This document shows positions 54,597-62,934 of a stretch of DNA of 64,000 nucleotides, piece after piece. The notes under the pieces are model-generated. The model worked only from the letters and a program-made list of their open reading frames with translations, was not told where the DNA came from and made no database searches. Position numbers and translations under genes: made by a program. Each line of letters starts with the position of its first letter. The first letter of the stretch is position 1. The DNA is taken from assembly GCA_903918755.1 (NCBI GenBank), contig CAIXFN010000090.1, positions 1 to 64,000 on the forward strand. Direction: 5' to 3'. This DNA is from an uncultured Pedosphaera sp. Lineage in GTDB: Bacteria; Verrucomicrobiota; Verrucomicrobiia; Limisphaerales; Pedosphaeraceae.

Positions 54597-56456
54597 TTAC
54601 GCGGCCGGGGTCGCCGGAGCGGCTTCGGTGGTTTCCACCGTTTTGTAGGCGGCGATGGTGTCAATGCGGTAGCGCTTGTGGGCGCCGCCTTCCATCTCAA
54701 ACTCAACTTCCTCGCCGGCCTTCTTGTTGAGCACCGATTGGGCCACGGGTGTGAGATAGCTGATCACCCCTTCTTCCGGGTTGGAATCCCAGGCGCCGAG
54801 CACAATGAAGTTTTCCGGCAGGTTGGTGTTCAAGTCGGTCAGTTGCACGCGGGTGCCCACGCTGACGATGTCCGTGCGGGGGTTGGCGAAATCCGAGCCC
54901 CGGGCCCGGACGAGTTGCGCCTCGAGTTCGGACTTCTGCCGCATGAGCAACTTCTGCATTTCCTTGGCGGCCTTGTATTCGTGATTTTCACGCAAGTCCC
55001 CGTAGCTGCGGGCAATGGCGATTTCCTTGGAATTGGCGGGAATTTTCTTCTGCACCAAGTCGTTGTACTGGTCTTTGCGCCGTTCCAGACTTTCCCAGGA
55101 AACAATCAGGTTATTCTCCTGCTTCGTGGTTTCACCCGAGATCAGCGATTGGATCGCCGGATAGCTCTTCACAATCCGGGCGAGCAGGGAACGCTTGTCC
55201 ATGTCATCAAAGCAGGGCGAGAGTTGCAGCGCCCGGGTCAGATCCTTGATGACTTCGAGATCCGCCGAACCAATCAACTCCACCAGCAACTGCTGATCGG
55301 CGAGGATGAAATCCCGCAGCCGGTTCGAACGCTTCTCGTTGAATTGGTCGCGCTCCATGGCGCTCAACATGGCGCGGAACACTTCCGGCCCGAGGATGTC
55401 CGCGAAGGCATCGGAACGTTCCTTGGCCAGCCAAAGCAACAGTTCACTGCTCGCCATGTGCTGGCTGATCAATTTGGCCAAGGTTTCCTTGAGCACATCA
55501 ATCCGCTGCTCGTGGAGCAGCAATTGCACGCACTCTTTGCACAATTTGGCGGACACCGTGTTCAGCGTGGTGCGGATCACTTCCAACCAGCGATCGGGAT
55601 TGGCCGCTTTGAACGATTCCAGGGTGCGATGGTGTTTCACCGCCGGCATCAGCTCCAACAACGCCCCCAGCTTCAAATCCTGACTCCAGATCGAGCGCAC
55701 GGTCAATTCCGTATCCGCCATCGCCAATCCGGCAGCTTCGTGCAGATCATCCCGCACAAAGATGGCTTCGAGGGCCACCGCCGGCTGGGTCCGCTGATGG
55801 GTGGCGATTTCAACATTGAGCGCCGGGATAATTTCCGCCGCCGCCGCGGTCTTGTCCTGCAAATCCGGGACGTTCTTGAGCACTTCGCCGGCCACCAGAA
55901 TGCGGGCCTTCAGCCCTTTGGCGGCGCGGAAGTCGGTCATCAGGCGGTCCTGCAGGCTGACCTCTTTGACCTGGTAAATGATCGGCTCGGTTTTCTTCAG
56001 GGGCACTTGAAAATGGCCGTCCTTTTTCAGTTCCTTCTTGGCCGCTTCCCACCATTTCTTCCAGTCGTCCTTGATGACGTCGGGCACGAGGGCTTGCTGG
56101 ATTTGATCCACCGTGGCGCGCCCGTTGTAACTCTTCAGCACCAATTTGATCAGGTCGAGGTGATGGAGGGCCGCCATTTGGCGCAGGCCTTCCAGATCCG
56201 CCGCCTTCCGGGCCAGAATATGGTCCTTGGCGATCGGTTTAAGGGATTCGGCGGCGAAGGCCAGATCCATCGTGTGACTGGCTTTGGTCTGAAAATCAAT
56301 CGTAAACCGCGCGAAGACGGTATCGACGGTAGTGATTTTTCCAAATCCCCAGCTCCGATGCATGCAATAGCCGCTGGTGGTGAGGAGCACGAGAGGCTCA
56401 ACCTGATGCCTTTCCAGCTTGCCCGCGACCACCAATTTCTCAAACTCTTCTTTCAT
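54597..56456 (-). CDS. greA: Transcript cleavage factor GreA with a large N-terminal domain
   Basis: This 619-residue protein has GreA at its C-terminus: the coiled-coil tip ARSYGDLRENHEYKAAKE near 482-499 with Asp487 and Glu490 at the positions of the catalytic acidic residues, then a GreA/GreB C-terminal globular domain (RVQLTDLNTNLPENFIVLG, GVISYLTPVAQSVLNKKAGE). The first 450 residues are helical; the opening (about 28-75, with SWGFGKITTVD) resembles the N-terminal extension of chlamydial GreA (transcript cleavage factor/unknown-domain fusion). GreA rescues backtracked RNA polymerase by inducing cleavage of the nascent RNA. The GTTTTT between a -10-like TAAGAT and the ATG suggests a leaderless mRNA. 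Confidence 0.9.
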   Translation of the reverse strand: MKEEFEKLVVAGKLERHQVEPLVLLTTSGYCMHRSWGFGKITTVDTVFARFTIDFQTKASHTMDLAFAAESLKPIAKDHILARKAADLEGLRQMAALHHLDLIKLVLKSYNGRATVDQIQQALVPDVIKDDWKKWWEAAKKELKKDGHFQVPLKKTEPIIYQVKEVSLQDRLMTDFRAAKGLKARILVAGEVLKNVPDLQDKTAAAAEIIPALNVEIATHQRTQPAVALEAIFVRDDLHEAAGLAMADTELTVRSIWSQDLKLGALLELMPAVKHHRTLESFKAANPDRWLEVIRTTLNTVSAKLCKECVQLLLHEQRIDVLKETLAKLISQHMASSELLLWLAKERSDAFADILGPEVFRAMLSAMERDQFNEKRSNRLRDFILADQQLLVELIGSADLEVIKDLTRALQLSPCFDDMDKRSLLARIVKSYPAIQSLISGETTKQENNLIVSWESLERRKDQYNDLVQKKIPANSKEIAIARSYGDLRENHEYKAAKEMQKLLMRQKSELEAQLVRARGSDFANPRTDIVSVGTRVQLTDLNTNLPENFIVLGAWDSNPEEGVISYLTPVAQSVLNKKAGEEVEFEMEGGAHKRYRIDTIAAYKTVETTEAAPATPAA

Positions 56457-59587: not shown

Positions 59588-59800
59588 TTAATGGTTGCCG
59601 GGTTTGGGATCCAACTTCATCCCGCACTTGGGACAGGTGCCGGCGCCCGCCTGCACCACCTCCGGATGCATCGGACAGCTGTACGCCAGGGCGTGCTCCG
59701 GGTGTTTGGCGTCCGTGCTCTGACAGCCGGTCTGGCTAAGGCTCAGCCAACCGAGGGCAAGCGCCAAGCCCAAGGAGGTAATCCAGGAAGTGGTTTTCAT
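59588..59800 (-). CDS. Small lipoprotein with a heavy-metal-binding (CPMHP) domain
   Basis: This 70-residue protein has a lipobox LSQTGC and, after a short linker, YSCPMHPEVVQAGAGTCPKC followed by GMKL, the signature of the heavy-metal-binding domain often found in copper/silver efflux and in YHS-associated proteins. The two Cys, Met and His ligands are all present. It would sit on the envelope and may bind copper or iron. It follows a candidate promoter at 59818-59846 and is 3 bp upstream of the flavin reductase. Confidence 0.82.
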   Translation of the reverse strand: MKTTSWITSLGLALALGWLSLSQTGCQSTDAKHPEHALAYSCPMHPEVVQAGAGTCPKCGMKLDPKPGNH

Positions 59801-59817: not shown

Positions 59818-59846
59818 AATATTCTGCCGGGTGACGCTTCCGTCAA
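59818..59846 (-). promoter_or_regulatory. Candidate promoter for the metal-binding lipoprotein/flavin reductase pair
   Basis: TTGACG (59846-59841), a 17-bp spacer and AATATT (59823-59818) match 5/6 and 4/6. The -10 ends 17 nt before the ATG. The promoter overlaps the end of the MlaA-hydrolase gene, so the pair may be transcribed separately. Confidence 0.5.
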
Positions 59847-61849
59847 GGCGCATTGCCCGGCCGGTTTTTCGCCTGGTCAGAAGTCGGCGGCGGACCGAGT
59901 CCCGCCAAGGCTTGGATGATGGCAGCGTGCACCTCGGGCCGCCCCAGGCTGCCCAAATGGCCGCCGTGCTCAAACAGCGTTAGTTGATCCGGCCGGGTGA
60001 CGGAGCGCAACCAGTTCAAATCCTCCTCCGGGAGGAGAAAGTCGTTCCGGTTGAGCACCAGCCGCAGGTTGTGATTGGCGGCGAAGCCGGCGGCATAACT
60101 CCGCAAATCACCCGCGGCGGCCACCGCTTCCCGCGTCCCCCCGGTCACACCGTTCGTCCGGTAAAACGGCACCACAAATTTGTCGATGTAATCCGCGTAG
60201 GAATAGTCCGTCAGAATTTCCTCATACGCCGCGGCCCGGCGCCCCTCATGAATGGGGGGGATGATCCCGAGGTTGTGACGCCGCTGACTCGAGTAGATTA
60301 TATCCCGCAGGATAAAGCGGAAGTTCATGCCGATCAAAAACCGGGACTCCACTCCGGAAAATGGCAGCTGGGTGGCGGCGGTGGACTCCGCCCCGGTTGG
60401 GGGTAGCGCCCGCTTCACGGCGGCCACTTTCAGCAGGGTGTTTTCCAGCGCGGCCGAGCGTTCCGCCGCCGGCCAGGCGAGCGGCGCGTCATAGTATTCA
60501 TCCAATTTGCCAATCCCGTAGAGCAGCCGCACGGGCGTGTTCACCCCCACCACCCGGGCAAATTTTATTCCGGGCGACTGGTTGGTGTCCTGGGTCGCAC
60601 CCAAATACAGGGATAAAAAGGCACCCATGGAATAGCCCAGCAGCGCCCGGTCGCCCAGCCGGTGCGGCGCCCGCTTTTCCAGCCGTTCGTCGATCGCCGT
60701 CATCGCCGCCCGCAGATCCTGCGCGTCCGCCGGCGTATAGCCCGGCAACGGGGCTGTGGCCGCCTGCTCCATGAATTCATAGTTGTAGGGGTTGCTCAGG
60801 ATCACGACCGAATAACCGTGCTGATAAAGCAATTCCGCCAGCGCCAGCGCCGGGTCCGTCAACCGGTGCGCACCGAGACCCGGTACGAGATAGACCAGGG
60901 GGGCGGGTTGCGATTGCAGCCAGGTCGAGAATTTCAGCCGCCGGCCCGTGCCGGCAATGCGAACCGCTTCCGTCCGGCCCCGATTGGGGAATTCCGGGTC
61001 CTCGAAGGTCACCAAAGCCGCCCCCAAAGTTTCCAGGGATGACTCCTCCGGCGGCCCGTGTAATTGGAAATCCGCCTTCCGGTTCACATCGGCAAAACTC
61101 CACGCGTAACCCACAAACGAATAGGGATCCAGCTCCGCTTCGCTGAGCCGCGCCACCGCGTCCACCGAGTCGGTCAAATTATTGTATTGGATCCCGTACA
61201 AGCCATACGAATAGGGCGAAAAATAGGTGATGGGATTCGCCAGGGCGTCCGCGGCCAGCCCGACGGTGTCCCGGTCATTGCTGGGTCCGAGAACCGGCAG
61301 CATCAGGAAGAAATCCGGTTGCCAACCCCATTGCCCGAATGTCCGGCCGAAATCGGCGTCCGACCGGGGAATCTTCCACTGGGTGGCCACGTCAAACAAC
61401 CCGCCGAGACCTGCGATGGAATTGCAAATGAACCGACCCGTCTCATCCCGTGCGCCGGTCCATTTACCCTCGAGTAGGTTGTTGGCCAACCGTCCGGGAT
61501 AACCCAGATTGCGGCCAAAATTGCTGATAGAACGGCGGACCGGGGGCCGGACCACAAATCGGTAGGCCCGGGCGGTCGGCTGCACCGCATCCGCCAGCAG
61601 GAACTGGTTGAACGTCCACAACACCCGGTTGACGGGTTCCAGCGGATCAGGAACGCCACGGGGTAACCGCACCCGGTCGGCCTGCTCCACCACGGCATTG
61701 GTGGCCGGCCCGGGCGACGCGGCGGACACCGGCCGGAGACTACCGGTCGTCAAAATCAGAGCCAACCCCAAAAGCCAGCGGGCGGGGCTGGCGGGGAGTG
61801 GGGGGGGATACTTTTCAGGGCGGTAAGGCCTGTTCCTACTTTCCGACAT
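59843..61849 (-). CDS. MlaA (VacJ) domain fused to an alpha/beta hydrolase
   Basis: This 668-residue protein joins two domains. A signal peptide (about 22-44) is followed by an MlaA domain at about 65-235: VPDPLEPVNRVLWTFNQFLL, YPGRLANNLLEGKW, FICNSIAGLGGLFDVA, DFGRTFGQWGW and LPVLGPSNDRDTVGLAADAL, typical of the outer-membrane lipid-transport protein. Residues about 300-650 form an alpha/beta hydrolase with GYSMG (nucleophile Ser407), an Asp at 603 in NRNDFLLP and His residues 628 and 631 in FEHGGHLG. There is no lipobox Cys, unlike E. coli MlaA. The combination suggests an outer-membrane-associated lipase or phospholipid hydrolase acting where MlaA moves lipids. A -35/-10 pair leaves 7 nt before the ATG. 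Confidence 0.8.
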   Translation of the reverse strand: MSESRNRPYRPEKYPPPLPASPARWLLGLALILTTGSLRPVSAASPGPATNAVVEQADRVRLPRGVPDPLEPVNRVLWTFNQFLLADAVQPTARAYRFVVRPPVRRSISNFGRNLGYPGRLANNLLEGKWTGARDETGRFICNSIAGLGGLFDVATQWKIPRSDADFGRTFGQWGWQPDFFLMLPVLGPSNDRDTVGLAADALANPITYFSPYSYGLYGIQYNNLTDSVDAVARLSEAELDPYSFVGYAWSFADVNRKADFQLHGPPEESSLETLGAALVTFEDPEFPNRGRTEAVRIAGTGRRLKFSTWLQSQPAPLVYLVPGLGAHRLTDPALALAELLYQHGYSVVILSNPYNYEFMEQAATAPLPGYTPADAQDLRAAMTAIDERLEKRAPHRLGDRALLGYSMGAFLSLYLGATQDTNQSPGIKFARVVGVNTPVRLLYGIGKLDEYYDAPLAWPAAERSAALENTLLKVAAVKRALPPTGAESTAATQLPFSGVESRFLIGMNFRFILRDIIYSSQRRHNLGIIPPIHEGRRAAAYEEILTDYSYADYIDKFVVPFYRTNGVTGGTREAVAAAGDLRSYAAGFAANHNLRLVLNRNDFLLPEEDLNWLRSVTRPDQLTLFEHGGHLGSLGRPEVHAAIIQALAGLGPPPTSDQAKNRPGNAP

Positions 61850-61944: not shown

Positions 61945-62934
61945 CTACTTCTTCTCTTCTTTCTTCTCCGCTTTGGGTTCCTCTTTTTGCGCCACGGCCG
62001 CCAATTTGGCCGCCGGTTCATTTTCCCAGCCGCGCGAAATCTGCACATTCGGCAGCGCCTTCTGCAATTCTTCGACCCCCTGGTCCGTGACTTTGGTTTC
62101 CCACAGATAGATCCGCTTGAGATTTTTCAGACCTTTGAGACTTTCCAGGCCGGCATCCGTGATGGCGGTGTCGAAAAGATTCAGATACGCCAAATGCGAA
62201 AGATTCTTCAATTGCGGGAGGCCGGCATCCGTGATTTTGGTGTGCTCCAGGTGCAGCGTCAGCAGGCTGGCCAGACTGGCCACGGGTTGCAGACCGCTAT
62301 CCGTCACGCGCGTACCCGCCAGGTTCAACTCGACGAGGGTGACCACGTCCTTGATCGGGGCAATGGTCTCATCCGTGGCATTCGTGCCCAGCATGTGAAA
62401 ATTAGCCTCGCGCCACTTCAGGTTCATGGCGATCGGGCGGACCGGCACGCCGGCGGCTTCGAGCTTGGCAATGGCCGCCGCCTCTCCCGCCGTGGGCTGG
62501 GGCTCACCGAGACTCGTGAAGGTCGTGTCCACCGTCGGCGCGGCCTCGGCCACGGCCTTGCCCACCGCGGAATCGGGCCAGACGGCCCCCTGATTGATCC
62601 AGTCGCGGATCAGGTCCGCCTGGGCTTGGGTCAGCGGATCACCCTTGCTGGGCATGATGTCGTCACTGCCGGGGGCCAGGATCACGCGGTGGTACAAATC
62701 GCTTTTATCGGCCTGGCCGACAACAATGGAGGGACCGTCCTTGCCGCCCTTCATGGCCGCCGCCTTGCTGTCCAGGCGGAGTTCTCCCTTTTGCTTCTCG
62801 GGTCCGTGGCATTTGATGCAGGCCTGCTCAAAAATGGGCTGGATGTCCTTAACGAAATCGACCTTGGCATCGGCGCCGGCCACGCGGCCGGCCAGGAGAC
62901 CGGTGACCGCGAGGATAAGAATGGAATTTTTCAT
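61945..62934 (-). CDS. Secreted cytochrome c (planctomycete type) with leucine-rich repeats
   Basis: The 329-residue protein has a signal peptide, then a PSCyt1-like heme domain: KDIQPIFEQACIKCHGPEKQ with CxxCH at about 39-43, and LRLDSKAAAMKGG. After an Ala/Pro-rich linker, residues about 200-300 are leucine-rich repeats of the LVELNLAGTRVTDSGLQPV / TDAGLPQLKNLSHLAYLNL type. The C-terminus is a charged Glu/Lys-rich tail. Such fusions are typical of Planctomycetes and Verrucomicrobia; the LRR could bind a partner or polysaccharide while the heme moves electrons. The role is unknown. Confidence 0.85.
   Translation of the reverse strand: MKNSILILAVTGLLAGRVAGADAKVDFVKDIQPIFEQACIKCHGPEKQKGELRLDSKAAAMKGGKDGPSIVVGQADKSDLYHRVILAPGSDDIMPSKGDPLTQAQADLIRDWINQGAVWPDSAVGKAVAEAAPTVDTTFTSLGEPQPTAGEAAAIAKLEAAGVPVRPIAMNLKWREANFHMLGTNATDETIAPIKDVVTLVELNLAGTRVTDSGLQPVASLASLLTLHLEHTKITDAGLPQLKNLSHLAYLNLFDTAITDAGLESLKGLKNLKRIYLWETKVTDQGVEELQKALPNVQISRGWENEPAAKLAAVAQKEEPKAEKKEEKK

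Follow-up and report, generated by a model that had tools for sequence, protein, structure and literature searches.

A fused MlaA-hydrolase protein of Pedosphaera as a putative single-chain counterpart of MlaZ and MlaY

MlaYZ and related systems compared with the fusion

The nearest homologue of described function for the protein considered here belongs to MlaYZ of Pseudomonas aeruginosa (PA3238/PA3239; Guest et al. 2023, PNAS), a two-protein version of an MlaA homologue plus a lipase (PMC11131202, PMC11977310, PMC12569750). In the available excerpts of these papers, MlaZ, the MlaA homologue, is proposed to hand phospholipid to the lipase MlaY for destruction (PMC11131202, PMC12569750), the catalytic residues of MlaY are given as Ser187, Asp388, and His415, and a pldA mutant is rescued by MlaY together with MlaZ (PMC11977310). 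PMC11977310 also labels MlaY a PldA homologue, a label that we have not followed, as the only Pfam models to hit the MlaY copy described below are those of alpha/beta hydrolases, and they do so weakly.

The window, a stretch of 64,000 nucleotides from an uncultured Pedosphaera sp., encodes a protein with an N-terminal MlaA half and a C-terminal hydrolase half. By tblastn, the hydrolase half matches a gene on a P. aeruginosa plasmid (27% identity over 86%, E 7e-25) whose 453-residue product has Ser187, Asp388, and His415, and the next gene encodes a VacJ/MlaA-family protein. Because these three residues are the ones given for MlaY, the plasmid protein was taken as an MlaY copy. With phmmer, the hydrolase half scores 101 bits against this protein and the MlaA half 80 bits against its neighbor, and Ser187, Asp388, and His415 of MlaY align with Ser407, Asp603, and His631 of the window protein. 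The plasmid MlaYZ copy (locus L052, 3746 to 5914, plus strand) lies near a recombinase gene, with flanking genes that look like the chromosomal neighbors of MlaYZ. Two Skermanella plasmids carry hydrolase-VacJ pairs as well, as does a Fusobacterium vincentii record, the latter from translated frames.

Like MlaYZ, the fusion genetically pairs an MlaA-family protein with a putative phospholipase, with both halves homologous and the triad the same; like MlaZ, the window protein has no lipobox. It differs in being one chain rather than two, and in running from MlaA to hydrolase, whereas in P. aeruginosa the hydrolase gene precedes the MlaA gene. Judged by these sequence relationships, the fusion is a putative single-chain MlaZ-MlaY. 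The hosts differ as well: P. aeruginosa also has the canonical MlaA pathway, according to an excerpt of the literature, whereas the Pedosphaera genome, 96.9% complete, has no match to MlaC (PF05494) or to PldA (PF02253).

With the E. coli OmpC-Mla system (MlaA, MlaC, and MlaFEDB), the fusion shares the fold of solved MlaA (5nuo_B, Z 18.9), but a hydrolase stands in the place of the MlaC that is absent from the host genome. E. coli MlaA itself is not known to carry an attached enzyme. The outcome proposed for the fusion, destruction of outer-leaflet phospholipid, is also that of PldA (OMPLA), a beta-barrel enzyme of another family, for which neither the host genome nor any of 54 hydrolase-bearing genomes of the phylum gave a PF02253 match.

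The fused gene and its protein

The fusion gene occupies positions 59843 to 61849 (minus strand) as an unbroken reading frame of 668 amino acids from an ATG, or 680 from an upstream TTG, and its identification draws on this frame, Pfam, and homologous fusions. The first-pass annotation had described a complete MlaA block and a hydrolase in a single 668-residue protein, and this description stands. The MlaA domain (residues 67 to 250; positions 61100 to 61651, minus strand) gives the significant PF04333 match that the annotation had led one to expect, at 182.6 bits against a cut-off of 25 and over profile positions 2 to 188 of 195, and is also identified by the genome search and by its match to 5nuo_B. 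For the hydrolase domain of MlaY type (residues 290 to 653; positions 59891 to 60982, minus strand), the expected Pfam matches all lie below their cut-offs (Abhydrolase_1, 19.1 against 25.8; Abhydrolase_6, 17.9 against 26.3), whereas the fold is clear in a structure model and phmmer connects the domain to MlaY. PF02253 is absent among the Pfam matches of the protein.

The AlphaFold2 model, built on 27 sequences, has a mean pLDDT of 86.4 and a pTM of 0.85. Its N-terminal domain matches 5nuo_B with an rmsd of 2.4 over 188 residues at 31% identity, and residues 290 to 653 match alpha/beta hydrolases (7d78_D, Z 21.7). Searches by sequence found relatives of solved structure for the MlaA half only; the hydrolase profile returned nothing below E 0.013, chance-level rows being ignored. 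The Foldseek listing for the model includes, at rank 26, a membrane phospholipase A, 6i8w (PlaF of P. aeruginosa).

The putative triad consists of the nucleophile Ser407 in GYSMG (codon at 60629 to 60631), the acid Asp603 (60041 to 60043), and the base His631 (59957 to 59959), all on the minus strand. In the model, Ser407 sits at a strand-helix elbow (strand 398 to 406, helix 408 to 419), Asp603 follows strand 595 to 600, and His631 follows strand 623 to 626, the usual loop positions in the order Ser, Asp, His. This order and the modeled fold place the hydrolase half in the alpha/beta hydrolase superfamily. All three residues are identical in 22 of 22 aligned proteins, comprising the window protein, a second copy from the same genome, 19 other fusions, and one row in which two adjacent genes were joined end to end. 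Among 53 homologues, the window row excluded, Ser407 and His631 are each conserved in 53 and Asp603 in 52. The first-pass annotation had offered His628 alongside His631; Ser407, Asp603, and His631 hold up, but His628 was rejected as the base and His631 retained as the catalytic candidate, since position 628 is His in only 9 of the 53. Some homologues carry a long insertion at window residues ~485 to 495, where the window protein is short.

An export signal is predicted at approximately residues 1 to 45 (61715 to 61849, minus strand); it was read directly from the sequence, coincides with a hydrophobic helix at residues 22 to 36 of the model, and has an Ala-X-Ala type ending as its likely cleavage site. 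Residues 1 to 60 of the 668-residue form contain no Cys, so the lipobox Cys is indeed missing, as the first-pass annotation had remarked; its further point, that the anchoring is thereby set apart, does not survive comparison. The second copy in the genome and MlaZ likewise have no lipobox, and several genera have MlaA without a lipoprotein signal, according to the excerpt of a review. By a motif test that is rough and errs both ways, 26 of 45 fusions have a lipobox and 19 do not (the call for L036 looks false, while L038, L039, L040, and L051 have an uncalled Cys in a lipobox-like place). The lipobox Cys, reported for E. coli MlaA, was therefore not treated as diagnostic of the MlaA family, as MlaZ too is without it. 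We rejected its absence as a special feature on these grounds, and it is an unremarkable local trait.

Several neighboring frames were recorded in passing, all on the minus strand. Directly downstream of the fusion, a small lipoprotein-like frame (59588 to 59800) encodes a heavy-metal-binding domain (PF19335, 43 bits) and has a Cys after a hydrophobic stretch, and in the upstream neighbor (61945 to 62934) a Planctomycete-type cytochrome domain occurs together with leucine-rich repeats. At 54597 to 56456, a GreA/GreB-type protein of 619 residues has Gre domains confined to residues 452 to 601, its first 450 residues being without a Pfam match at E 0.1.

Recurrence of the fusion and the partners of MlaA

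The host genome (7.19 Mb in 118 contigs) carries a second MlaA gene, likewise fused, of 656 amino acids. Named genomes yielded 27 hydrolase loci, of which 26 are fusions with MlaA and the remaining one is truncated at a contig end; at least 5 contigs of this set are the same records as in the phylum sample described below. By title, the carriers include Pedosphaera, Akkermansiaceae, Verrucomicrobiaceae, Lentisphaera, and Oligosphaera, together with metagenome-assembled genomes titled Omnitrophota, Myxococcota, and Deltaproteobacteria; Lentisphaera marina and Oligosphaera ethanolica both have the fused form. Across 116 genomes of the window's order, MlaA occurs in 30 and a strong hydrolase match in 28 (31 with any match, three weak ones having been set aside). 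Both domains occur together in 27 genomes, each time in one open frame of at least 619 amino acids, and the exceptions are two genomes with MlaA alone, one MlaA shortened at a contig end, and one hydrolase at a contig start. One fusion frame of 1149 amino acids (L094, 4880 to 8329, minus strand) has ~510 residues ahead of its MlaA domain, the first 480 without a Pfam match; a lipobox-like motif lies near residue 479, and the true start may therefore be internal. The frame of L100 (1152 amino acids) resembles it.

The partners of MlaA were counted in 193 genomes of the phylum, each at least 90% complete. MlaA was found in 75, the hydrolase profile in 63, MlaC in 23, PldA in 19, and MlaE in 177; nine genomes with weak hydrolase matches (best E 3e-6 to 7e-4) were set aside, leaving 54 strong ones. 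The 75 MlaA-bearing genomes contain 79 MlaA loci, of which 52 are fused to the hydrolase, 5 are followed by it as a separate gene, and 22 have MlaC adjacent (within 500 bases on the same strand), with no locus having both partners and none having neither. The G138 locus, counted among the 52, runs off a contig end, so that only the start of its hydrolase is visible, the rest lying on another contig. The hydrolase is downstream of MlaA in 57 of 57 hydrolase loci, and the two frames of each of the five split pairs either share up to 17 bases or are separated by no more than 29, as measured from longest-frame starts.

At the genome level, all 54 strong-hydrolase genomes and 22 of the 23 MlaC genomes have MlaA, and a single genome (G172), which carries two MlaA genes, has both partners. 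By family label, the hydrolase occurs in 10 families and MlaC in 12, the only shared family being that of G172. These counts are of related genomes rather than independent events, and Fisher values, which treat the genomes as independent, are descriptive only. A genome survey for fusions and for loss of PldA, put forward in the first-pass annotation, thus yielded 52 fused loci and no PldA match in any of the 54 hydrolase genomes by profile search, while PldA is present in 2 of 22 MlaA-MlaC genomes. Six of the 54 (G014, G031, G058, G097, G146, and G184) lack an MlaE match; the host genome has four copies of MlaE. As 118 of the 193 genomes have no MlaA match, the MlaA-hydrolase system is not general in the phylum.

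Outside the phylum, nine genomes were reached through named loci, and three of them, titled as Myxococcota or Deltaproteobacteria, have a fusion and MlaC together, so that exclusion at the genome level is limited to the phylum sample. Among their seven MlaC matches, both of those in G308 have a separate, normal-sized MlaA gene next to them; the same is true of two of the four in G309, the other two having no MlaA alongside; G310 has one MlaC-MlaA pair, in which the MlaA frame is long but contains no hydrolase. Pairing at the gene level holds in most of the few outside cases seen. MlaC was searched for in the 193-genome sample and in the genomes from named loci. A Myxococcota-centered sample, 143 genomes around the phylum of G308, has 22 genomes with any hydrolase match; 14 were set aside (13 weak, plus G422, whose match covers 61 positions at 1e-12), and seven of the remaining eight strong matches are fused to MlaA. 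The eighth, in G326, is a separate hydrolase gene directly upstream of MlaA (L104, 1581 to 3649, minus strand; 4-base overlap), which is the MlaY-MlaZ order and the opposite of that in the seven fusions.

Phylogenetic trees were generated for the MlaA domain (75 rows: 44 fused, 5 split, 4 MlaZ-type, and 22 MlaC-type) and for the hydrolase (53 rows), each with the second copy of the host genome but not the window's own, and with arbitrary roots chosen for drawing. In the MlaA-domain tree, the fusions fall into a few large groups with the split pairs beside one of them, apart from the four MlaZ-type rows, which cluster with the MlaC-type rows and one long-branch fused row (L051). In the hydrolase tree, the split pairs again stand beside the same 13 fusions, and the MlaY-type rows are apart. 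The topologies fit two halves that have long evolved together and would be compatible with one or several fusion events. Around 50 loci (44 fused, 5 split, and the window), the sole neighbor cluster found in at least four loci is a protein that reads as ATPase-like from its sequence, in four; this is a weak test, as neighbors were taken as longest non-overlapping frames, a choice that can pick wrong frames where GC content is high, and the flanks of many loci are short.

A proposed route for stray lipid and its alternatives

We consider it probable that the fusion acts as a single-chain MlaZ-MlaY pair that destroys stray lipid in place without MlaC. The observations behind this reading are the fusion itself, the homology of its halves to MlaZ and MlaY, the conservation of the triad, and the exclusivity of partners in the phylum sample. 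The exported protein would be seated in the outer membrane by its N-terminal MlaA domain, a location that we infer, and the MlaA channel would take up phospholipid misplaced in the outer leaflet. The excerpt available of PMC10719372 puts the docking site of E. coli MlaC on the C-terminal helices of MlaA, at the base of the channel on its periplasmic side. In the fusion, the hydrolase follows these helices and would thus lie on the periplasmic face where MlaC docks, so that lipid leaving the channel would meet the hydrolase instead, presumably by direct hand-over and in the direction of removal. As a predicted phospholipase, the hydrolase would then cleave acyl ester bonds with Ser407, Asp603, and His631, and the lipid would be degraded on site with no MlaC carrier. 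That the enzyme acts on lipids extracted by MlaA, as the first-pass annotation had suggested for a fused lipid-removal device, is supported by the homology to MlaY, the partition between MlaC and hydrolase, and the absence of PldA from 54 of 54 genomes; the concept of such a device is not new, however, as the two-protein MlaYZ, in the excerpts cited above, precedes it.

An identity of 27% to MlaY does not by itself fix the substrate, and an unlikely alternative makes the hydrolase a modifying enzyme such as an acyltransferase, for which MlaA would supply phospholipid as acyl donor to a protein, lipid A, or glycan acceptor. The triad and fold are common to enzymes of many activities; the structure matches show the same fold serving thioesterases, dehalogenases, and peptidases. 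An acceptor site could be held by the insertion at ~485 to 495 in some homologues, although the window protein is short there. PagP, an enzyme of a different fold, offers a parallel. It takes outer-leaflet phospholipid as its donor, according to the excerpt of a review. Against this, the excerpts cited describe MlaY, the closest homologue found whose function has been reported, as a phospholipase or lipase, and the neighborhood analysis, weak as a test, gives no conserved gene suggestive of an acceptor.

Less likely still is a role in scavenging, in which MlaA would admit exogenous lipids and the hydrolase digest them as food. The predicted export signal and the labeling of some carriers as gut bacteria by title would suit such a role, but the same weak test found no conserved neighbors such as fatty-acid uptake genes, and the either/or relation with MlaC points to membrane upkeep. 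Finally, that assembly or annotation artificially joined two genes, the frameshift raised in the first-pass annotation, is scarcely credible and was rejected: two-gene versions do exist (5 of 79 loci), but the fusion recurs in the second copy of the same genome, in 52 of the 79 phylum loci, in all 27 order-sample genomes with both domains, and in 26 of 27 named loci.

The hand-over from MlaZ to MlaY had been proposed already. A survey of 1083 genomes describes MlaABC as mostly proteobacterial and suggests that degradation, for example by MlaY, may serve in phyla that lack Mla (PMC10665443); the excerpts available of that survey do not mention an MlaA-hydrolase architecture. A literature search with thin coverage of subscription papers found no description of the fusion or its extent in the portions available, and the single chain and the wide partner pattern in the phylum thus appear new relative to the literature searched.

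The two-gene system of P. aeruginosa thereby becomes a recurrent one-protein design, and the phylum sample presents a clean either/or, in which MlaA goes with MlaC or with a phospholipase-like enzyme. On balance, we favor a reading of MlaA as a lipid-extraction head that is neutral as to its partner and has two alternative exits. In 54 of the 75 MlaA-bearing phylum genomes (one of which has both kinds), the exit would be an attached or operon-linked phospholipase rather than MlaC and a transporter, which would make the upkeep of asymmetry carrier-free and ATP-independent, six of these genomes having no MlaE match. On that reading, removal must be the direction in which MlaA operates in these bacteria; as an MlaA permanently tied to a degradative enzyme makes most sense as a lipid-removal device, the fusion offers a simple way into the dispute over the direction of Mla transport. 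These results suggest that, in many of these bacteria, stray membrane lipids are destroyed in place rather than transported back.
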